A stretch of DNA of 64,000 nt, from assembly GCA_950295325.1 (NCBI GenBank), contig OX485803.1, forward strand, positions 61,457,554-61,521,553, given 5' to 3'. The position numbers and the translations under genes were made by a program. The notes under the pieces were generated by a model. The model saw only the letters and a program-made list of their open reading frames with translations. It did no database searches and was not told where the DNA came from. Source of the stretch: Polytrichum commune (taxonomy: Eukaryota > Streptophyta > Polytrichopsida > Polytrichales > Polytrichaceae). Of the stretch, positions 47,716 to 64,000 are shown piece after piece; positions within the stretch are counted from its first letter, which is position 1, and every line of letters begins with the position of its first letter.

Positions 47716-50139
47716 CTAATTGAAACTAATCTCATGTAAAAGTCTCATTCCAGCTGCTTGTACAAGTCGACGGTGAATATAGGCTGGTAAAGCTTTTGTG
47801 AGGAGATCAACAATATTGTGGACAGATTCGATGTTTTGTACTTGAAGTTGACCACTTGTGATTAACTCTTGTGTATAACTGAAAATCTGTGGATCGATAT
47901 GCTTCACCCAGTTGTTTTTGATAAATCCAACACCCACTTGTGCTACACATGTTGCATTATCCTCGTATATGGTGGTTGGGTTGATGGGGGTGTTGAGGCC
48001 GGTCCGAGTTATCAATAACATGTGGAGATTTCGAAGCCAAACAGCTTTTAGAGTGGCCTCGTGAAAAACAATTAGCTCTGAGTGTTTGGTGGAGGTTGTT
48101 GTCACCGTTTGTTTGACACTTTTCCAAGATATGGGTGCATTACTGTAAAGGAAAATGTACCCAGTTTGGGACTTGCCTGTGGTGACATCAGATTTGTAGT
48201 TGGCATCCACATAATCGATAATTTTTAAGGAGCTTGTCTTGACATAGTGAAGTCCCAAGTCTTCAGTGCCACGCAAATATCTGAAAACATGCTTGACAGC
48301 GCGCCAGTGCCTTATGGGAGGTTTCTGACTATGCCTTGTCAGGACACTCACAGTGAAAGAAATGTCGGGTCTTGTGAAAGTTGCAAGGTATAATAAGGCG
48401 CCTACGGCTGCAAGGTAGTGGATTATGTCCATGAACTCCTCCTCCTCTTCTTGGCATGGGTGATATAGATCATCTTTGGTGCTACTTCTACCAATCATTG
48501 GAGCTGAGAGAGGGTTGGCTTTGTCTATGTCAAATCTCCTTAACATCTTCTGAGTGTAGCCCGTTTGGTGAAGAAATATGTTTCCATCAGGATGATGAGC
48601 AATATGTAGTCCAATGCAATAAGAAGTTTTTCCTAACAACTTCATCTCGAAGCGGTTGGTTAGCAAACTAACAACCTTCTTGCATGTTGTTGGGGTACCC
48701 ACTAGATTGATGTCATCAACATAAATGGTGACAATGGCAAAACTAGAGGACTCTCTAAGGATGAAAATGCAAGGTAAGTTCTGGTCATGTTGAAAATTAT
48801 GGTGAAGCAAGAAAGAATGTAGATGAGAGTACCACATGCGTCCAACTTGCTTCTAGCCATACAAGGCATGTTGAAGTTTTAGACCCGAATAAGACTTGGA
48901 TGTGTCAGATGGGATGGGCTTAGAGAGAAAATCAAGAGGTGGCTTAATGTAAAGCTCAATGTCTAGTGGACCATACAAGTAGGATGTGACAACATCAAGT
49001 AATTGTGTTTCTAACATGTATTGGACTGTCATCCCTAGAAGGTACCTAAAGGTAGTAGAATCCATGACTGGGAAATAAGTTGATGTGTAATCTACACCCG
49101 GGCATTGAGTGAAACCTTGTGCTACTAAACGGACCTTGTAGCGAAGAACTTGCCCTTGGGCATTTCTTTTCTTTGTGAAAATTAGCTTGTGGCCAACTGG
49201 CTTGGTGGCCAAGTTGGTCACAAGTGGACCAAAGACTTCATGTTTGCGCAAGGAGGCATACTCATGCTGAAGAACCTCAAGCCAGCTGGGCCAATCAGGG
49301 CTGGCCTTTGCTGCCTCCAGCGTGAGGGGGTCAGCAGCTGCCTCCAAGCTAGACACAAAAGAAGAAATGGACATGATAGGGTCTGAATCACCCGGGGGAG
49401 CAGAGACAATGAGCTCACCATGATGACTGGACCGAGTGGACCTAGGCTTCTTGGGTTTGGGCAACAGTGACTGAGGAGCATCCCGGTTGGGAAAAACTTT
49501 GAGTTTTGTTTGACCAGCTCCCGGGAGTGGGTTTCGAGTGATTCGCGAGGAATCATTGAAACCGTCCGGAAGCTTTTCAGCCAAGGCTTGGAGAGCTAGC
49601 AGTTTTCTAACTTCAGAGTCTGCAAGAGGAGTCCTAGGGTCTGGGTCCATAGTGATGGTTTGAGGAGCAACAAAAACCAGAGGTTGAGAGGGGCCCGGTG
49701 AGGTGAAAGAAGGGAAGACTTTTTCTTTGAATTGACAATTCTGGAAACGCGCTTTATGTAAGACTCCATACTTAGGGGAAACCCAACGGATCATACTTGG
49801 AGAGTCAAATCCCACGTATATGCCATCCTAGCGATGGGTCCCTATGATCTTACGCTCGGGCTCTGGAATAGGGACCCAAACACGACATCCAAAAACTCTG
49901 AAATGTGCAACGCTAGGGGGATGACCGGTTAAGGTCTCAAGGGGAGAATGCTCATGAAGCAAAGTAGGTCTATATCTAAGCAAAGCAATGGCACGCAATA
50001 CAACATGTGACCAAAAAGAGGAAGGTAAATGAGTATGGATCAAAAGGGGCCGGTTCATGAGTTGAATTTTCTTGATGAAAGCCTCTGCCAACCCATTTTG
50101 AGCATGTTCATATGGGACACCATAAGTTAAAGAAATTCC
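47716..50139 (-). pseudogene. Ty1/copia polyprotein, 3' part (integrase C-terminus, reverse transcriptase, RNase H), decayed
   Basis: One reading frame on the minus strand carries the integrase end (YGVPYEHAQNGLAEAFIKK), a Ser/Pro-rich linker, the copia reverse transcriptase (VRLVAQGFTQCPGVDYTSTY and the YVDD active-site box) and RNase H ending in ALPAYIHRRLV. Two in-frame TAG codons interrupt it, at about 49828-49830 and 48850-48852, so this copy is dead unless suppressed. The 5' part (gag, protease, most of integrase) is absent because the CACTA element begins at 50140 within the integrase. The nested order shows that the copia insertion is older than the CACTA insertion. Confidence 0.9.
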
Positions 50140-50440
50140 CACTACAACAAAACCATGGCTTAATGTCTCGGCACAATTGACTATCCGTGTTTATTTAACT
50201 GAGGTAGCCCGACCTCATAGTCAGGGTGGTTTTTGTGACTGACCATAGTCCCAAACCACCCTTGGTTTTTTTGACTCAGCAATTCAATCGCACTTATTGA
50301 CTAAACATAGTCCACAAAATCAGAGGAGGCATACATTATTGGGAGCAAGCAAACTATGCATTGAATATGTTTTTTTGACTCAAGACCCAATCACACATTT
50401 AGACTAACTACAGTCTTAAAAACTTAAGCCGGTATGACAT

Positions 50441-53400
50441 TCATTCTTCATCTGAAGATGAAATTCCAAGGTAATCTGAATTGTCCTCTGAGTCAAATGG
50501 AAACTCATGAATATCTTGCCCCTCATCATTATCATCTGCACTATCATCATGCTCCACATCACCTGCATCTAATGTGGGATCTGCCAAGCCTGAATAGTTG
50601 CTATCATTCCCTAAGGTCAGACAAGGCACCTCTACCATTTTATCCTTGGCACATTCTACTCTTCGACTGCGAGGCTCGTTCTTCAGAACCACTTTCCATC
50701 CAGGTTCACTGCCGGGATCATTTGAGAAAAAAACCTGCTCAACGTGGATAGGAAATGCAAAAGAATCTTCAGAGATGGGTAACATATGATTGAAGTTCAC
50801 CAAAGTGAACCCATACTCATCACGTTTCATAGTAGCCCCTGCTCCTCTATGATTGGCTCTCACCCAATTGCACAACAACACTATCACACACGTGGTACCA
50901 TAGTTTAATTCCAAGATCTCCTCCACGTAGCCTACATATTCAATCTCTGCTTCAATGGGATTCCTGTCATTTACACTTGAGCGACACGTTGTCCCAAATA
51001 CAGCTGCAACTCCAGAATCCATGGTAACCAAATTGGTCTCAGCACTCTTCACACGGATGTGATTTCCATATGCATACATAGACCGGTATGCAGTAGCTTT
51101 CATGGTAGGAGGTATGCTCAATTGAATGACCTCCTCTTCTATGTTCTCTCCATCGTTGATTGCTTTGGAAATGGCTGGTAATATCCAATTTTCATAAGGC
51201 GGCAATGGCCTCAACTCATCTGGATATTGCAACCTTGCTCCCCTCCTCCTATGACTATTCTGATAGTGCAATCGAGCTATGCCTTGAGCTTCCACAGCGT
51301 CTTCGTACCTCCTGCCATCAAAAAGTTAGGTATAAAAGTCAACATACGATCTTCAATACAACATGGGCCACCTATGCCAAAATGAAAACACAAAATGAAA
51401 TCTTACTTTTTCCAAGGTTGTAATGCGGCTGCGTTTTTCAAGACAAACGAGTGTGCCCAATCCCTCAAGATAGCAGGCATAAGCCTGTCATGCCCCTCTC
51501 CTTCAGGCATTTCATCATACATCTTGGGATCTTCACGGTCATCCCATACTCGCGTCTTTGTGCTCTTGGAGTCTTTCATATACTCTGTACAAAATCCCAG
51601 CGATTCTTCAAAGGAATACCCCTCCGCCATGCTTCCTTCCGGCCTTGCCTTGTTACGTACAAAATTCTTCAATGTCTTCATGTACCTTTCTATAGGGTAC
51701 ATCCATCTGGTGTGCACAGGACCACAAAGATCCAACTCCTCCACTAGGTGATACATCAAATGTGTCATTACATTGAACAAAGAAGGCGGAAACTCTTTCT
51801 CAAGGATACACAATGTCATTGCAGCCTCTTCTCTTAGTTCTTTCATACTGCTTGGATCCAAGGTTTTGGCACAAATCCGTTGAAATACACGACTCAGGCG
51901 AATGATTGCAAGCCTTGGTCCCTTCGGCAGTATAGTGCGAATACATAAAGGTAGGACCTGTTGCATAAGAATGTGATAATCATGGGCTTTTAAGCCCTTC
52001 AATTTGCTAGTCTCAGGGTGTATTCTTTTTTTCAAAGAACTTGTGTATGAAGTGGGGGCCTTCAACTCTTGTATTATACCCACAAATGTTTGTCGTTCAT
52101 CCGCTGTCATCACATAAGGTGCAGGTGGTAGCTCTAGTTCTCCATTCCCCATAGGAATGGGCCACAAATTTGAGCGTATGTTCATAGCAACCATGTCTCT
52201 CCTTACAGCCACTGTATCTTCTTCACCAAAAAGAATGTTCATTAAGTGCTCAACGAGATTTTTCTCGCAGTGCATCACGTCCAAAGTGTGACGAATAAGA
52301 AGATCCTGTAAAAACCATAATAAATTATCAATTATGTTACATACTTAGATTGGATACAAGCCTTCTTCATACTGCTATATTGGATTATGTTGGATCAATC
52401 ATTTAAAATATTGGAATATATCTACACCATAATTAGTCTAAAAGCAAATCAATGCTATAGACTACACTAAACATTTGACTAGAATGCGTCTTAAAATAAT
52501 TTACAAGCTCATAATTGGTTTATTTGACAATCTTTAAGACTAGAGTATTTGTTGTACATAAAGAGCAGAGTTTGAGATAAACAAACCTTCCAGTAAGGGA
52601 GTTTCCATAGAGCACACATTCTTTTCATTCCATGCTTGTATACAGGGTCATTTCTGGCTCCAGGTTTCCCCCCTTTAGCAATCCATTCATCCCGTTCTGT
52701 ACCATTTTTTATAATCTCGTCTGTCAAGAGTGCTCGTGGTTTTGTCCTCTTTTCTATCTTGCCATTGAACCAACTTTTCTTTTTTCGGTAAGGATGTGGG
52801 CAAGCGAGTAGGCGTCTATGACCGGTATAGATCATTTTCCGCATAGGTTTCGAGTACCTTGCAATTGTATTTGGCCCGCAATTTGGACAAGCCTTGTAAC
52901 TCTTGGTTACACACCCTGAAACAAGACCTAGGGCTGGGAAATCATGTATGGTCCACATTAAAACAGCTCGCAACAAGAAGCGATGGTTACCATTAATTGC
53001 AGCAACATCATATGCCCACACTCCTTGCCATAGCTGGAGAAGTTCTTCAAGGACAGGTGCTAAATAAGCATCAAAGTTATGATCCTTCACCGCTTCTTTC
53101 CCAGGAATGATGAGAGCCAACATAACAAAAAATCTTTTTGTCACAAGCCATGGAGGTAGATTATAGTTTAAAAGGATCACTGGCCATGTAGAATGTTTCA
53201 AGTTGAAATCTCCAAATGGGTTCATCCCATCTGTAGCGAGTCCCAATCGGATGTTACGGGTTTCAATAGCAAAATCAGGGCACATATTGTCAATGTGCTT
53301 CCAAGCTTTGGAATCTGATACCGATCGCACCAAACTCTCATTTTCTGCACCTATTTCAGGAGATCCTTTATCATTTGGTCGATTATGTGCATGATGTTGC

Positions 53401-55518
53401 ATAAGCCCAGCTATGGATTTGCAACGGTACATTCGTTTAAGTCTTGGGATCAAAGGGAAGTGGCGAAGTACTTTTCGCGGGACTGTGGATGACCCTTCCA
53501 CATATCGGCTGCAATCGCACTTTGAGCATTTGTCAAGATCCTTGTGCTCCCCTCGATACAATATGCATCCATTTTCGCAAGCGTGTATAGAGTCATAGGT
53601 CAATCCAAGGTTTTTTAGAAATTTTTTGGCTTCATATCTTGATTTCGGCAACAAATTGCCCGGCTCCAATATATCCTCAGAAAGGAGAGTTAATAACTCA
53701 TCTACATGGCCATTCGTAGTACCATGCACTGTGCATGTATTAAGAATAAGCAACACAGCATGTAAGAGCTTCACTTTACTCCCTGGATACAAAGGAGTGT
53801 TAGCCCACTTCAGTAATTCATCCAAATTGGGGTCCACCACAGGCGATTCTGAGACCAATGTATGCCCATCCTCATCATTTTCCACCTCTTCAGGGATGTC
53901 ATCTTGGCGTGAGCTATTCCCATGGACTTCGTCATAGCGGATAAATGCTTCATTTCACATGCGATGCAACTCAGTTTCAGGATCTATGCTTCCATTGAAT
54001 GAACATGTACAAGGTGCTTGAATTCGATTGCCATGACGATCCAATGTATGGGGATCACGATTTGACAGTGAATAAGGATCACAACCCAATGGCGCCAACT
54101 CGGGATCCGGTCCCTGCCAAATTTTGAAATGAAGTAACCCTAGCCCACTTAGAAACAATAAGTTCTCAAGTTAACCAAGAGACAATACACATATCTTACA
54201 AAGTATATTTGTGATATATATCAAAGTATATATTTTACAAAGTATGCAAAATACAGATTTTGTGAACTTCTGTTCCAGTGCACTGCCAATAATGGAACGA
54301 GTGGCTACAAAAGATACAGTGGACCACACAAAAGAAGTCACCACCAAAGAGAATCACACGAGTGAAGCTCAGTAAATTCTCAATCTTAAAAAGGAGGGAA
54401 TTGAATGAAGCCAACTGTGAAACCCTCAGCAAGCATTGTCTCTTAAGTTCTCAAGTTAACCAAGACAAAAATAAAATGTTTTGAAATTTATAGTCATATA
54501 AACCCATTTGGGACCCAATCCACATAAACCCATTAAAATCAAGTCATATAAACCCATTAAAGTCAAGTTATATAAACCCATTTGGGACCCAATCCTACCT
54601 CTTGGTCCATTGCTAACCTCAAAGTCTCAAAAATTTTACTTTATAGTATGCAAATAGTTCTTCTCCTGCTTTGATAGGCCTAATTGACCTAGTCATTACA
54701 TATCCCCATTCTTGCTTGTTCCATGGTCTAGGTTCCACATCATGATATTCCCAAATGACATTCTCAATCTCCTCACGCCTATCAGTAGAGCTATTGATAT
54801 AGCCTGCAACATTCTTTTTTTCCACATCCCCATCAATGTAAAATGTTTTTTCTGCATTCAATGCATAGCGTTTCACTCTTGGAAAATAATCTCGCATCTT
54901 GTTGTATTGGTTGGTTGTGTAGTAAGGCCCCGTAAATGGAAACAATTCTTCTTCTGCTTCCAAATTTTGAAGTGTAAATAGACCCCAACCCATGTACAGA
55001 AATGTGGATATTCTAATTTCCCATTGACGGTTCCACCATGTGAAAGGGGTCATCCGTGGGATTGGTAGAGTAGGCCATTGGCCATAGTTCTTCCTCACTT
55101 CAAAATTGACCAATTGGGTTATGGCCTTAGGTACAAATGAAGTTGACATTTCTTGCTTGGAAAAGCCTTCCCTAAGGAAAGCCTTTAATGCCAAGCTCAT
55201 TGATTTTTTCACTTGTGGGCGATGTTTATCCTACACCATAAATAAATGCAAAACATCAAGTATATATACAATATAAGTATACAATATGTTGCAAAAAATG
55301 AAATTGATTCAACTATCAACATATTATGAATAAATAAAAAAACTCACCAGAATTGATTGTGTGAAGAATTCGTCACGCTTGAACTTTCGGAGATGTGCTC
55401 GTATCGTCGTTCGGTTGAGCACTTGAGAACCATGACATTTGTTGCATGGACAACGATATTCATGCAACTTAAGACGATTTGCTTGTAGTTCTTCTCTGGC
55501 ACAAAGGGTAGCCTCCAT
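50441..55518 (-). CDS. CACTA tnp2-type transposase fused to a SET-like domain (TNPD-like), five exons, one in-frame stop
   Basis: Minus-strand exons 55518-55348, 55230-54640, 54113-52587, 52305-51407 and 51311-50441 join by GT-AG in consistent phase, giving 1353 codons including stop. Order: CPCNKC..H zinc-ribbon-like segment (about residues 22-45); SET-like domain (about 130-250) with GWGLFTLQNL, FYIDGDVEKKNVAGYINSS (like the SET DG..N..R(Y)xN box), IENVIW and IRPIKAGEELFAYY; transposase core with FGDFNLKHSTWPVILLNYNLPPW, CPNCG and DVMHCEKNL; a DUF4218-like part (HDYHILMQQVLP, HTRWMYPIERYMKTLKNFVR); a DUF4216-like part; an acidic C-terminus. A TGA at 53957-53955 interrupts the third exon. 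The 5' end is uncertain: the ATG at 55518 is the first in frame, but an acceptor near 55545 suggests an earlier exon. Joining of the SET exon to the transposase exon is inference from splice signals. Confidence 0.75.
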
Positions 55519-55671
55519 GGTTTCGGGATCAAGTTCCCCTTCCACTATGTTAGGGGTAACATTTATTAGATAATACCATAATAATTATATTGATACATTA
55601 TAATAATATACATATTGTATGCCACAAAATTAATTAAACCACAATTTGCCATGTAGGATATTGCCATGTAG

Positions 55672-55753
55672 GACTTATTGACTAAGGTTAGTCAATAAGT
55701 CACAGAGCTTACGAGCATATTAGGACTTATTGACTAAGGTTAGTCAATAAGTC
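55672..55753. promoter_or_regulatory. Two identical 30-bp palindromes in the divergent promoter of the CACTA element
   Basis: Positions 55672-55701 and 55724-55753 are identical: GACTTATTGACTA, spacer AGGT, then the exact inverse. Each is followed by CACAGAG. They lie between the minus-strand transposase gene (start near 55518) and the plus-strand gene (start 55952). The core TTATTGACTA also occurs in the left subterminal region (near 50298), so they may be binding sites for the element's own DNA-binding protein. This is inferred from position and sequence only. Confidence 0.6.
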
Positions 55754-55951
55754 ACAGAGGTACTTATAAATATTGTTTAATTGACTGGATGTCACATATT
55801 ATGAGTCAAAAGGTACCTTATTAACTTCATAGGGTATTTAAAATTTGAAATTCAAAAAGTGACCTAAAGGCGCCCTTCACTTGCACGATTTTCAGGGTTC
55901 GTAGTTGTTCGTAGTTCATCCAACCTCAGGTTGTGCGTTAGATCGTTGGCT

Positions 55952-58900
55952 ATGGCAGAAGGTGAGGAGGTTGAGGCTTACGAGCATCTGAGAAGGCAAA
56001 AGATTGCAAAGAACAATGCCTTTCTTGCATCATTGAATCTTCCCAGGTTGGAGAAGTTGAGTGTCTCTCTAGTGCTTACTTCCAAGTTTTTGTACTTACT
56101 TGTAGGAGAGGGTTAGGATGAGTGTTGCGCCGATGGCCGAGGAGCGCCTTTGTTTCGCCTTTGTTGATTGTTTTGTCTTGTTGATTTCTGCTTTGTCTTG
56201 TTGACTTCCTCAAACCCTTGCCTAAAACCCTTGCCTCAACCCCTTTACTCAATCCCTTGCCTCAAACCCTTGCCACTTGTTTTAGAACCCTTGCCTACAT
56301 GCACGGATTTCTCCTCCAAGGTTCGGTAGTCGTTAGGAACTTAGAGAGTACTAGAAACATGCAGGCGGAAGCATAGAACATCATGTGGATGAGGAAGAAC
56401 GATCCTTATAGACAAGCCCATGTTCTTCAATGTGGCGTTGGAGATTTGGACGGCGAAGGACAAACTGTTTGCTTATAGGGTGGAGAAGAAAACGAAGCAA
56501 AGCTTGTCTTAAGAGATCTACCAGCTGATAGGGTTTCAAGTGTCTTATGTTTGCATTTCTTCCCTTTGTTTGTCTCAAACCCTTTCTTCCCTTTCCTCTC
56601 TTCCCTTTCTTCCCTTTGTTTGCCTCAAACCCTTTCTTCCCTTTCTTCCCTTTCCTCTCTTCCCTTTGTTTGTTTCAGAATCCTTGTCTCAAACCCTTGC
56701 CACTTATGATTTCTGCTTTGTCTTGTTTGTTGAAACCCTAGCCCACTTAGAAACTTACTTAGTGGTGAGACAAACTACTCTCATGGTATCTCACTCGACA
56801 TAGATTATCTTCACTCATCACGAGCCCAGTGTGGATAAGAGTTCGATGCTGGTAAAAAAAGGTCGGGGATGTTGTTTTGAAAGCCGCAACCATGAATCCA
56901 AGTGCTCGGAATTTGCAAGTCACAGTCGTGATGAGGATGATTGTGTCGGAAGACTCTAGTTCCCAGGTCAGGTCAAACTTCTTAGAAACTCTCAATTGTC
57001 CACAATTGAGAAACCCACAATTGTCCACCCTCACTGTTCCCACCCATTGCATTCTTGGCCTCACTTGCAATACATCACTTGCAATTAAGTAGTTGCTGGC
57101 CTTTGTTTGGTGAATACTTTCTTTTCCCGCCTCCATAGAACTCCTTTCCCGCCTTTTTTTTACAATCTTGGTTCTTAGTTAAACCTAAACCCTAATTGCC
57201 CAATGAGTTAGTAGTTAGTATGTAACTACTTACTTTGCTCCACTCTGATGTTCATGAGGTAATGAGTGAATTTGTTGCCCAATGAGAACATTCGAGTTTT
57301 TTTTAATTAATGAGCCGTCTGGTAATTAATGAGGCATTGCCCTTGCTGATGCCTTATGATGTACCTTATGATTAATATTATGTTTGAGAAGATGCAACCC
57401 AACTCTGATTCACATTGCTAAAGACTTTAGAGCTTCCTAAAGTTATTTTGATGTTCATATTTGTCTTTTTGATTCACAATGGGGCATTCAATGGATACTA
57501 ACGATCTTATCAGAAGATTGGCTAACATATCAGATATTGACCAACAGAGTGTTTTCTTGGCATTGAGCAGGTTTCCTTCTATTCATCAACCAATCCTTGA
57601 GAAAGCCACCTCAGACCTTGTGAATACCTTTGAACTACAACAAACCTTACCTCGATCAGAGGGTGCTATTGAAGGAATATGCACGCCTAGACGGAGTAGG
57701 CGCTTGAAGGGAGAAAGAAATAAGACCAGCGTGTTGATAGAATCTTCAGAAGACGACAAGAGCAAAGACAAAGATTTTGAAGGCGATCTAGAGAGTTCTA
57801 GTAGCTCTACAGAGGATACATCTCCACCTCCATCTCCTCCTCCTAAGAAAAAGGTACATTCTAACCTGCCTTACTCATTTGCGCTAAGTATGGATGTCAG
57901 AATGTACTAAGTATGGATGTATGAATGCACTAAGTATGAATGTCAGAATGCACTAAGTATGGGTTAGTATTGAGTTTCTTTAGGTTTCTCAAGAGTCAAG
58001 AGTCAAGAGTTAAGTTTAGAAGAAGAGGGTAAGGAAACAGTATTGTTGCCTGCAAGTCTTATGTTTAACTTTGCAGTTTGCTTAATTTGGTCATATACTA
58101 GGTCCTTAATTTGCTTAATTTGGTCATATAACCTGTTCATATACTAGGTCCTTGTGATGTGTTTTATGTGTTTTATGTTCTTTATGTCTCTTTGAGATTC
58201 CAGTGAATATGCAAGTCTCTGGATTGACTTGTATTTGGGACGGTGTAGTTGGGAGACTCATCTGGTGGTGTCTTGCCTTCTACTTTTCACTGTGTTCATA
58301 TCTGTTGGCAAGGATTATATTGGTACGTGATGAAACTTCGTAAATTGTCATCATGGAAGATTCTCTCATAGAACATCTTCTGTTTTCTTTCGTGGAAATA
58401 ATGGGTTTGTTGCTCTTAGGTGGTTTCACCTAGTGTGTCTGTATAGACCGATTCTGTGCAGAGTAAGTTCTCCATGTCTGGAGAACAATTCTTCATTAGT
58501 ACCCTTCAGGCTACAGAGTCCCAATCCTCTTCAACTTTCGTCCTCCAGGAGTGCTCTATCGTGGCTTATTCTGTATCAAACCTGTATTTGGTTAAAGTGG
58601 GGGCTCTCATTATCATCTGTTTTAATCACCTTCGTCAGACTTATATGAATACACGGGTGTGTTCAATTACAACTCCCTGCACCATGAACTTGAGATGGAT
58701 CCTTCGCCAGTTTATTCATAGGTCATGACTTAGAAACGAAATACCACACAATATTTTTGTTGTTTGAATACTCTCAGTTTTCATGTTGTTCCTAGTATTT
58801 CCATTTATTCTCGGCCAAGTAACATGCAGTACAAGAATTAGGTGTGTAAACTCATCCCAATTCTTCTCATATTCAATTGTCATGTTCAATGATCATCTTT

Positions 58901-61900
58901 TCAATGTGATTCAGATTCTGAAAGGTTTATCACAATGACATTAGGTTTATACAAATCTATATACTAATGTTCAGTCCATGTTTTTATTGTGTGTTTTAGG
59001 AGGAGCTTCTGCACGTTTGGAAGAAGAGGAGCAAAGTGAAGAATCCTAGAGGAAAAATGGCACCTAACAAAAGAAAATCACACGTGGATCCCCTACCTGG
59101 TGAAGATGAAGATGAATCGTGGTTGGGAGAATTCGAGCTCGATGAGGACGACAATGATGAATTTGGTGAGGCCCAACTTGCTCAACCCCTTCCACAGGTA
59201 TGTGCCTTCAGCCGGTGTTTCTTATTTCACCTTGTTATTGTAATGCTCTTCTGACTTGAGTGGATACCTGAAAGTATGATCATCTGAAATTAAGCTTGTA
59301 TGTATGAGTGTTCTTGGTGACTAATTGCTTATGTTTGAGTAGATGCAGCAAGTGCAGCCTCCCCCACAACTTATGCCCGTCCATCAACTTCAGAATCTGC
59401 AAAATCCACAATTGTCCTATCTACTTCAAGCATTGGGACAACAACCTGCACCCCAACATATAGCATACCCTAGTGTTGGCCACGCTCAAGGCAATGTCCT
59501 AGGAGCCTTCTTGGCCGGGTTATTAAATCAGGTATGTTTCTATATTCTTTTGTAGCCAATTTATAAAGCAGAGGATGAGTGCTTCTCAATTTGAAATTGA
59601 GTTCTTATTGAGTCCTTATTGAGTGCTTGATTTTTGTAGGCACCAGCTCCAGCCATACCTGCACCAACCATACCAAACATTCAATTTGGCCATGACGAGG
59701 ACTCTGATTTTAGAATTCGCATACCTGGGGAGTCATCAGCAGAACGAATTGTTAGGTTGAGAAATCGGAGGCGAAAAATTGCAGCAGATGCACGATCTGA
59801 AGCAATCCTACGGAAACAAGCAGGGCAAAAACCATATTGGGTGAAATGTGATGTTAAAGGATTCCCCACAGGTTCTAGGTTGTATTTGTGGGGATCGGCA
59901 CTTCGGGGGTATTCCCATGCATTGGATTGCAGCATCGTTGACTTGAACAAACAACCTCAGACTGCAATTGAAGCCATCAGGCGTCGACTGGATGAGGCAT
60001 GGGAGTATGTAGACTACAAGCTCCATGATCATGCATTTGAGAAGCATTTGAAGCAGATTTTGAAGAACAAGCGACATCTCCTAAAGAATCGCATTGAGGC
60101 TAATAAGGAGAGGTCGAAGACCTGCACTCCAGAGCATTGGGAGAACATGAAGCTTTTGATCAAAAATCCAGACAAAATAGCTGAGGCTGAGAGGTTGAAG
60201 ACTGTACGGTTATGCAATCAGACATCATCAGCTCATGGAGAAGAATCCATTCGAGAGCGTTTGGTATGTGAGAGGGATTATGTATTATAATTTGTTGAAT
60301 AATTTGTTGAACATTTTTATTTGGACAATACTTCTAATTTTGTGACATTGTAGGAGGAGGAGCTTGGCAGGATACCAACAAATGACGAAGTGAATGATGA
60401 AATGAAGAGGTTGAGGGCAAGCAAAAAACAGAAAACAACTGCCTCAGGGATCTCTACAATCTTGCGGGTTCAATTCTTTTCTCTTGCATCTTGTTGTATT
60501 CTTTGTCAATTGCATCTTGTTGTGGGTGTAAGTTTGGAATCAATTCAACACGCCATGTAGACCTGGCCTATATCTTTAGTTATGAAATGTAATTGATTCG
60601 CACACTGAAACGTTAGTTGTACAGTTTTCCAAGGTTGGTGATGGGAATTGCAGGCCGGGGAGGGAGGTTAGTATGTCAGGCTGGCGCATGCCAAACTTCT
60701 CTAATTTTTGCAAGTACTCTAGTACAGGATATACTTTTACAGCGGCGACTCCAAGGGGAAAGCAGACTGAATTCTGCTTGTGAAACTGTACATCTGAGAT
60801 GATTTGTGTGCGATGAAACTTTGGTAGTTGAGTTTTTTTGGTTGTTATAGGACCCGGGTGATGGGAATTGGGGCGGGGGAGGTTAGCTATGAAGTCTATA
60901 TCGGTGTGGAAAAAGAGAGGGATTTGACTGCAGGGAGGCAGTCATGGTTGCATTGGTTGGTATCGATCGTTCTTCTCTGCCTTGATGCATGATCATCCAG
61001 TTTGCTTGCATCCTTCAATATGAAGGCATTGTAGATTGTTTGACATGTAGATGATGATGCTCTCTGTCGTCACCAACTGATCCTTTTTATACATACTTTT
61101 CTTGATTCTCGGAAGCTATAGAAACTACACAATTTCTTTTATGCACTTAGTACTGCTAGTGGATGAACTCACTCACCGAACCATTCTCAGTTGTTCGTCT
61201 AAGACGTTTGATGACTTGCAGGAGGTAAATTCAGGGGTTGGTGGAGGTGAAGGAGCCTCAAATATGGTTTCGGGATATGCTCATGACCCTACAGCTCTAG
61301 CATTAGAAGGAAGGATCCCAAAAATGGAGAGTAAAATGGATGAGATGCACGCGATGTTTGCTGCCTTCATAAAGTCAGCAACCCCTAACCCACCTACTAT
61401 TGTTGTCTCACCTACTAAGACTGTGGATGCCCGGGCCATTGAAGTCCAAGATAACCAACAAGTGGACCAAGAGGCAAGAGAGAAGGTGTGTGATGCTTAT
61501 CCCTTATTTACTCCGAATAACAACACATGTTGCAGAATAACTCACATGAGAAACTTTTTCCATTATGAGTCTCAAATATCAAGTTGTCAAAGTTGGAGGG
61601 CAGATAGATAGGTCTTGGGCAGACAGTCGTCAAAAACCTAAAGTTTTATGTAAAATTGTGCTCAACCATTGATTGTCACACAGTAATTAATCACCAAAGC
61701 ACCTGCTATGGGTGGTGAGGTCTTGCAGGATGGGCTTGCATGCATAACTTATTTGATAGAATAATTCCCTCCCACAAATCAAGTTGCCAGAATTAAGGAA
61801 CAACGTTTAAAACATGTTGTTGTGTATCCAAAGTGCGCATGGATGGACTTACCCATGCCTAGAGTGTCTTGTTTCTGAATTGAACCTGTGAATTGTAGCG

Positions 61901-63999
61901 GTTGTGGATCTAAAGTACTGAGGGAATTTTGTATCCGAGTGTGTTGATGATGGTTCTGTTTTGTTGGGGGTTTGAATTACATGTTGGAGTGTCCTTTAAT
62001 GATTTGATAGACAGAGAGGGGGTGCCTTGTTCTGAAGCTGTGGAATGTAAGATGTAGGCTTAGTTTCTTTCTGTCAAAATGAGTAGTGTTTGTGAATCTA
62101 AGAATCGCGAGTTGCCAAAATTGGTGCATTTCAATGAATTTTTCTATCGAAGTGTGCTGATGGTTCTGCTTTGTTGGGGGTGTGTTTCATTCAGACTTTA
62201 TCTCGGCATCTGTTTACTTTGGTTGCAACTTTAAGCACATCTGAGTTAATATGTTAATATGAGGCAAAACTTCTTTAATATGACAATGATCTTCCCATAA
62301 ATCAAGTTGTTAAAGTTGGAAGGACGGACAGTTGGGTACCGTAGTCTTATAGTTATGTTGTTGAGAAGGTGTTGTTATTCAATTAGGAGTAATTAATCTT
62401 TGCAAGTTCTGAAGTTCTCATTACTTGATCTAAGCATCTGGTTGGTTGCACATTTGGTTCAGGTCGTGGTTTGATATATTTTCTATTGTTGATTACTTGA
62501 GGTGGTTGAGCCAAAATTAATCTCAATATTGCTCTGCAGATTCCCACCTAGTCTATGTAATCATCTGAGTAGCACCATTGTATACACATCAATTTGCTAC
62601 CCCAAGCAATTTGCATAGAAATTTCAGCAACTATAATCAGTAATCATTTGTAATTGTTGTCATTATAAGTAGCAGCTATTGGTCCTGTCAGTGAACCCTT
62701 TCCAGGCAAATTATCCAGGTTTAAATGTCGTCTTGTTTCATTTGATTGCTTCTCTTTGTTGCATGTTGTTTTGCAAAAATCTGTATTTGGTTAAAGTGGG
62801 GGCTGGCTCTGTATGTATTTAAAATCACATGTGACCCTAAGTAACACCTTCTACCTTCCATGTCTGTGACAGTAGCAGTTGTAGAACTAGAGTGTTTTGA
62901 TGTTTTGAACTAGAGTGGTATCAGATGTTTTGAGCTAGTAACCTTTATGAACATGCAAATTTCAACCTAAGTTATTATTACGGTGTGTGTTTCATTCAGA
63001 CTTTATCCCGGCATCTGTTTACTTTGGTTGCAACTTTAAGCACATCTGAGTTACAGCAAGAGAGTTACAATAGCAACTTTTAGCAAGAGAGTTACATTAG
63101 CAAGAGAGTTACAGTAGCAAGAGAGTTACAGTAGCAATACAAAGTTACAGTAGTGATACAGGGGCTGCAGCTGCTCTGCTAGGACCCTCTAGCTAAGATA
63201 TGTTTGCTAAGATACTTTTGTGTTGGAATAAGTGTGCAGGAAGCTTCAGAGGCTATGGCTGTGTTGGGCCTTGCTGTAGCAGCAAAAAACAATGCGCCAC
63301 AAGTTGTGAGCAACAATGTTAGCCCTACACAAAGCGGGAACGGACAATCTTCAAAGAGAGCCACACGAGGCAAAGCAGGTTCTAGTAAAGTAGGAGGTAG
63401 TCGGAGCCCACCCAAAAAAAAAAACTACACAACCTCCTCCAAAGCCTGCAATTGTGAAGGAGGTGAGAGAAGATGATTCCTCCCATCACCCTATGATTCG
63501 AACAAGGTCCGCTTCTTCCAAAAAATTCTTGGTGATTTTTGAGCTGGAACATGTTCTTTGTAGGATTTTGGGTGATGAACGAAGGGATTTGGGAAGCCTG
63601 TGTGAGAATTATGAGAAGGTTCAAGGTAGTGTCGTGGCTTTGCGGTGGTCAAGCAGTCAACTCATCAAAGACTGTATGTCCAAGTTTTTGGTTGTTTTTT
63701 ACTCGTCCCTTCCATGTGATATGGTGGCTGGGATTGTGGATATTTTATTGCGGGGCATATCTGAGAGACCAATTTTCACTTGGAGTAGGGTAAACTGTGT
63801 ACAAACTAAAGTTTCCCACCCTAGAACCCGGAGACCATGTTGGTTATGAAGGATTTGGAAAATGTGTACAAACGGGTCAAAGGACCTATAGCATTTACTA
63901 GGAAGAACACTATACTTGTAGACTCCAATGTTCTTGAGACAGTGTGTATTCCTTCCGGTAATGTAGTGCATCCTAAGAGGTGGGGGGACTCAGAGTTTG
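55952..63999 (+). CDS. CACTA second gene: Ptta/En/Spm-type DNA-binding protein with FCP1/NLI-like tail, multi-exon, frame broken
   Basis: The likely first exon is 55952-56046 (MAEGEEVEAYEHLRRQKIAK). The join to the next exon, ending at 57853, is unresolved. After that, exons 59000-59197, 59343-59531, 59640-60263, 60354-60467, 61222-61485 and 63240 onward all chain in phase 0. They encode a basic/Ser-rich part (TPRRSRRLKGERN), an acidic part, a Gln/Pro-rich part, a Ptta/En/Spm transposase-like domain (KPYWVKCDVKGFPTG, EHWENMKLL), a possible coiled coil (ALEGRIPKMESKMDEMHAMF) and an FCP1/NLI-like domain (KKFLVIFELEHVL, MSKFLVVFYSSL, NTILVDSNVLETV). A run of 11 A at 63414-63424 appears to shift the frame, and at least one further shift is needed near 63795-63835. 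The phosphatase signature DxDx reads FELE here, so the catalytic Asp residues seem to be missing. The gene runs off the window. Confidence 0.6.
56555..56700. repeat. Pyrimidine-rich minisatellite (CCCTTTCTTCC units)
   Basis: Irregular repeats of 'tttgtttgcctcaaaccc' and 'tttcttccctttcctctctt' within an intron of the CACTA plus-strand gene. The apparent Phe/Leu/Pro-rich open frames here come from the repeat. Confidence 0.8.
57884..57965. repeat. Tandem repeat, unit about 23-24 bp
   Basis: About four units of 'actaagtatggatgtcagaa', with small variations, follow the donor site at 57853 in the CACTA plus-strand gene. Confidence 0.8.
62181..62248. repeat. 68-bp direct repeat, copy 1
   Basis: Nearly identical to 62986-63053 (one difference seen, tct versus tcc). 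It starts 'tgtgtttcattcagacttta' and ends 'cacatctgagtta'. It lies in the large intron of the CACTA plus-strand gene. Confidence 0.85.
62986..63053. repeat. 68-bp direct repeat, copy 2
   Basis: Second copy of 62181-62248. It runs directly into the 63054-63150 minisatellite, so the duplication boundary coincides with that array. Confidence 0.85.
63054..63150. repeat. Minisatellite, 17-18 bp unit (AGCAAGAGAGTTACAGT)
   Basis: About five units of 'agcaagagagttacagt' with variants such as 'agcaatacaaagttacagt', in the intron just upstream of the exon at 63240. Confidence 0.85.
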
Positions 64000-64000
64000 A

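Follow-up and report, generated by a model that had tools for sequence, protein, structure and literature searches.

A SET-domain exon in intron 1 of a CACTA transposase gene of Polytrichum commune: a probable alternative terminal exon

Introduction

Transposons are usually the targets of histone methylation. Several described systems are related to the element studied here: In maize En/Spm, alternative splicing gives rise to the tnpA and tnpD transcripts, the tnpD open reading frame stemming from intron 1 (PMC2613891); HarbingerS and MuDR transposons of Phytophthora contain a gene for a SET histone methyltransferase (Kojima and Jurka 2014, cited after PMC12730594), and fungal DNA transposons, EnSpm-type elements included, carry a TET/JBP enzyme acting on epigenetic marks (PMC12730594). 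Section 14 of PMC8978399 names Peptidase_C48 and Transposase_24 among the CACTA domain types and, from databases, also SANT and further ones; SET is not among them. The present analysis concerns a CACTA element of Polytrichum commune with a SET-domain exon in its transposase gene, located in a stretch of 64,000 nucleotides (the window; G000:C1:61457554-61521553 of the 408-Mb genome in 64 contigs). A first-pass annotation of this locus had proposed that the SET exon is joined in frame to the tnp2 transposase. The comparison of copies across the genome points instead to a gene with two products: Intron 1 probably holds an alternative terminal SET exon, and alternative splicing would yield a TA-SET protein and a TA-transposase that share the Transpos_assoc-like (TA) segment of exon 1.

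Results

The SET exon and the transposase gene of the window copy

The SET-like segment recognized by eye in the first-pass annotation is real: The minus-strand frame 55230-54622 matched the Pfam SET family over the full profile length (E-value 8.5e-10, 39.4 bits; cut-off 22.4), and the structure model of the 163-aa core, based on a 34-sequence alignment, adopted the SET fold (a model of the full 203-aa frame from 13 sequences reached a pLDDT of 33 and was discarded). A profile search against the structures of the Protein Data Bank retrieved MLL1 at 9e-6; phmmer with the single SET frame gave weak matches only (best ASH1L, E 0.15). G81, G83 and Y196, which we take to be catalytic residues, were invariant in the SET alignment and aligned with GRG and DY of MLL1. 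The GxG motif and the catalytic Tyr are present. The expected NHxC motif is absent: most members read GNVAG(F/Y)INSS with the Asn retained and His and Cys substituted. Because NHxC appears as NSS, methyltransferase activity is uncertain. PRDM9, which is not known to possess the NHxC motif, is an active methyltransferase according to published abstracts. Divergent SET proteins of the GNVAGY-(I/M)-N-S type (P0032, P0043, P0046, P0047; 30-39% identical) also occur in the public protein collection. The lone NCBIfam match (T4SS_AnkI, E 0.0014, 17.5 of 550 bits) was far below the cut-off and was rejected.

The exons downstream of SET bore out the annotated transposase layout (Transposase_21/tnp2, E 4.3e-71; DUF4218, 3.2e-39; DUF4216, 1.3e-8). 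The TA exon carries a CxCxxC...H pattern and matched PF13963 (Transpos_assoc) at E 7.3e-5 and 23.3 bits, below the cut-off of 27.7; for L029, a U-box match scores slightly above the Transpos_assoc match. The proposed donor GTAAAA, which comes right after Tyr-Tyr-Lys close to the end of the SET frame, and the acceptor TTGGCAG exist as described. Both joints are in phase 0, and joining the five exons gives 4,059 bases, a multiple of three. The joined reading frame is, however, interrupted by TGA at codon 307, a position with a sense codon in all 19 close loci compared. Because this TGA lies in the tnp2 frame, neither splice can produce a full transposase from the window copy; the SET frame of this copy is open.

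The SET tail across lineages

The in-frame fusion would splice the SET exon via GTAAAA or GTAAAT to tnp2 and produce one TA-SET-transposase. Besides the fitting acceptor phase and the exon sum, it is favored by a phase-0 GT at the SET tail of 18 of the 19 close loci (L020 has GC) and by the GTGAAT of five L031-type copies (YYS-GTG-AAT-TAA); a GT is also present in the L036 fragment. In the close loci, a stop follows three codons after the GT (four in L009) in the form ...YY-x-V-N-F-stop; the window sequence is one base longer, and this difference shifts its stop a few codons downstream. Against the fusion, the stretch from the last SET motif to the stop contained no phase-0 GT in 18 of the 24 further distinct copies (25 loci, L030 and L057 being the same place, which gives 13 instead of 14 copies of the L029 type), and in three of the five sampled lineages, including the most numerous fetched one, the SET frame ended in its own stop without a phase-0 donor. 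These donor-less tails read HYSLNPHTxL-stop (L029 type, 13 copies), YYPLN-stop (L052, L053, L056) or HYLFAK-stop (L032, L054).

The protein tails argue in the same direction. Among 33 of them (window included), the donor position was occupied by Val in 15 and by Ile, Leu, Phe or Gly in 18; since GTN cannot encode the latter residues, these 18 tails exclude a donor there, including P0002, which is 79% identical and belongs to the wider lineage of the window. The protein tails originate from intron-blind predictions, and therefore only the residue and not the stop ending is informative. Conserved is a pattern of a hydrophobic residue followed usually by Asn and soon by a stop: Because this protein pattern was kept while the GT was not, the supposed donor is read as coding sequence.

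The SET-less lineage L033-L035, whose tnp2 is 54-55% identical to that of the window, possesses a phase-0 TA donor and a phase-0 tnp2 acceptor, its SET-like matches being only weak (E 0.019 or worse) and located before TA. As the phases fit, the TA-to-tnp2 splice can work alone and the SET exon sits within intron 1, which is a further argument against the fusion, as is the interrupted joined frame of the window. Relatives lacking the exon had been named as a possible sign of a nested insertion; such relatives were found, but the SET exon is not an independent nested insertion because it is part of the CACTA element and occupies the same position in many copies. Taken together, the proposed in-frame junction of SET and tnp2 failed this comparison and the fusion is very improbable as an explanation of the gene, although a fusion isoform could be made in the lineages with the tail GT, the window's own included.

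Copies in the genome

A tblastn search of the genome with the SET frame gave at least 151 matches (150 of 198 candidates scored). Copies with the same order exist: 19 of the 20 fetched close copies retained TA, SET, the tnp2 exon start and tnp2 one after another, the 20th (L028) containing TA and part of SET within its 10 kb stretch; DUF4218 was present in seven and DUF4216 in six of the 20 (10 kb each). Among the matches listed, 72 of 108 SET places had a same-strand tnp2 downstream within 12 kb, mostly at 280-1000 bp (one partner is 11 kb distant), and a SET match preceded 70 of 94 tnp2 matches, leaving 24 without one; the 108 places were taken from the at least 151 matches with weak rows omitted, and some copies count as two places. 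Five of the 24 SET-less tnp2 places were fetched, namely L033-L035 and L037, all four without a SET match, and L036 with the last 25 SET residues only. Across the genome, 90 of 119 PF00856 matches were of the transposon-borne type; this search proceeded exon by exon and therefore counts matches, not genes, so that split host SET genes may be missed.

Nine copies (L011, L012, L014, L016-L018, L020, L025, L026) kept TA-SET-tnp2 with DUF4218 and DUF4216 absent from the fetched 10 kb; where a 3' end was recognized in them, it came soon after the tnp2 exon. They are internally deleted copies, possibly mobilised in trans. In the divergent lineage L032 (1032-2012), a long proline-rich stretch precedes the SET core; at the SET stop there is an AATAAA-like motif.

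Start, selection and history of the SET exon

An independent SET gene, with its own promoter in intron 1 and an internal ATG start, is suggested by several intron-blind predictions that begin at internal Met codons (P0001-P0003, P0005, P0013-P0017). However, the copies have no Met in common at the beginning of the exon (in L052 the MGWGL core is preceded by none, in L053 only by one immediately adjacent), and the in-frame AG acceptor directly upstream as well as the TA donor are retained in divergent lineages, which makes this arrangement unlikely.

Selection was assessed by simple pairwise dN/dS estimates (30 rows, 29 distinct; 15 loci with stops or frameshifts left out). Between lineages, the SET exon gave 0.23-0.29 for seven window-lineage rows versus L021 (dS 0.4-0.5), 0.26 for L052-L053, and 0.17 for window-L031 at a dS of about 3, near saturation; the tnp2 exon gave 0.13 for window-L021. 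Means within the L029 type (13 copies) and the L031 type (5 copies) were 0.40 and 0.60, respectively. Judged from these substitution patterns, the SET exon is under purifying selection between lineages. That it is a passively captured fragment without function would agree with reports of gene fragment capture by CACTA elements (PMC8978399) and with the dN/dS near 1 of recent copies, but this is hardly probable in view of the between-lineage values of 0.23-0.29 and of open frames with invariant core motifs in lineages at 32-47% identity.

In a small tnp2 tree of 10 rows and 150 columns, rooted at the midpoint on a long branch and with two forks open, the SET-less rows grouped with L029 and L031 inside the SET-carrying rows, the divergent SET-carrying L032 being placed outside. 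This topology fits a loss of the SET exon in the SET-less lineage; repeated gain may be the alternative history.

Observations opposing the two-product gene

Several findings weigh against an alternative terminal SET exon in a functional two-product gene: the tail GT in 18 of 19 close loci, the five L031-type copies and the L036 fragment; the stop endings of the protein tails, which prove nothing alone, the predictions being intron-blind; the loss, among the 19 close loci, of the SET acceptor AG in L011 and of the tnp2 acceptor AG in L015, L022 and L027; the TA score under the Pfam cut-off; the replacement of the canonical NHxC by NSS; and the dN/dS of 0.4-3.8 in recent close copies (window-L009: 1.5 on 14 differences). 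The lost acceptors are as expected of decaying copies but do not speak for the two-product gene.

Element ends and surroundings

The gene lies within 50441-55518, as annotated first, whereas the element as a whole, of 15,365 bp, extends beyond this interval and beyond the window (Table 1). Its terminal inverted repeats read CACTACAACAAAACC (plus strand) and ...TTGATTTGTTGTAGTG at L058:1489-1504; the former, the 3' repeat, also terminates L009, L010, L015 and L027, whose flanking sequences differ. CACTA-type terminal inverted repeats, a 3-bp target-site duplication and a tnp2 with DUF4218/DUF4216 are all present, and the element is a member of the CACTA/EnSpm superfamily. Two close copies match the window in two blocks at ~98% identity, and the homology extends to the window end. 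Joining both flanks minus one TCC restores an open Copia integrase-type frame, YCQATGISLTYGVPYEHAQNGLAE; from this frame and the TCC on both flanks it follows that the CACTA element was inserted into a Copia element. The interrupted Copia retrotransposon (RVT_2 and SH3_retrovirus matches) occupies 47716-50139 on the minus strand, and its remainder starts after L058:1504.

The 5' half of the element (57400-64000, plus strand) contains further conserved blocks that recur elsewhere at 67-97% identity; no Pfam family matched the plus-strand frames tested there, and the phosphatase-like appearance by eye of an upstream plus-strand gene was not supported. An Rfam scan of the window at gathering thresholds gave no match. 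In L029, an array of a ATATGACT-type motif at about 1070-1300, upstream of exon 1, likely represents subterminal repeats of this lineage.

Table 1. Features of the CACTA element in window coordinates.
Feature	Position	Strand	Remarks
CACTA element	50140..64000 + 1,504 bases past base 64000	-	5' end outside the window at L058:1504 (= G000:C1:61523057)
Target-site duplication TCC (3 bp)	50137..50139		partner at L058:1505-1507
3' terminal inverted repeat (gene-strand sense)	50140..50154	unassigned	same repeat ends L009, L010, L015, L027
DUF4216 exon	50441..51311	-	Pfam match; includes transposase stop
DUF4218 exon	51407..52305	-	Pfam match
tnp2 (Transposase_21) exon	52587..54113	-	phase-0 acceptor TTGGCAG; in-frame TGA 53957-53955
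SET exon with own stop	54619..55230	-	203 codons + stop; acceptor GTGTAG directly upstream, phase 0
GTAAAA, donor of the first-pass annotation	54634..54639	-	here read as Val-Lys codons of the SET tail
Exon 1, ATG and TA segment (YRCPCNKCHG...TTIRAHLRK)	55348..55518	-	57 codons; phase-0 donor GTGAGT
Conserved 5'-half blocks	about 57400-57864, 58961-59210, 59328-60518, 61199-61466, 63199-64000	+	plus-strand frames

Discussion

The junction phases are compatible with a two-product gene sharing exon 1. In the proposed gene structure, splicing of the pre-mRNA from TA to the terminal SET exon would give a TA-SET protein some 260 residues long, and the alternative splice from TA to tnp2 would give the transposase, by analogy with the two spliced products of En/Spm; both would share the N-terminal TA module. 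If TA binds the element ends, this shared module would bring TA-SET, and thereby a lysine methyltransferase, to the element copies. The predicted methyl mark would change the chromatin or silencing of these copies and would most likely aid the element in staying expressed or in self-regulation, the direction of the effect (anti-silencing versus self-restraint) being a guess. That this CACTA lineage marks its own copies by a spliced, element-targeted SET methyltransferase in order to escape or tune silencing, and was amplified to 90 of the 119 SET matches of its genome, is put forward tentatively as a possible but less than even prospect.

If true, a plant-type DNA transposon with its own SET domain behind the N-terminal module of its transposase would constitute a self-targeted chromatin writer, and one genome offers a natural comparison between related lineages that possess the SET exon and others that lack it. 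A further caution is that, in genomes of this kind, transposons can account for most of the SET domains counted.

SET genes have already been described in DNA transposons; a literature search, with Repbase Reports and most subscription papers outside its scope, found no SET exon in a CACTA element. VANC of the VANDAL transposons reportedly exerts an element-specific, anti-silencing control resembling the role proposed here (Hosaka 2017, cited after PMC12730594); VANC is not known to be a SET enzyme. SETMAR of primates likewise unites a SET part with a transposase. It is a single fusion gene of the host, its transposase being of the mariner type, whereas the element studied here forms a mobile multicopy family and is probably not a fusion. 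The Phytophthora HarbingerS and MuDR transposons resemble the present element as DNA transposons with a SET gene; however, they are elements of oomycetes with Harbinger or MuDR transposases, in contrast to the tnp2 CACTA type in a plant-type genome with the SET exon behind transposase exon 1. The transposase found here is tnp2/PF02992, which places the element outside HarbingerS. In the fungal TET/JBP transposons, the enzyme is a DNA dioxygenase and not a SET domain. Finally, the second product of maize En/Spm (tnpA/tnpD), Tam1 and soybean Tgmt* is a TNPA-type DNA-binding protein, whereas the putative alternative exon described here, located within intron 1 of the tnp2 gene, is a SET domain.
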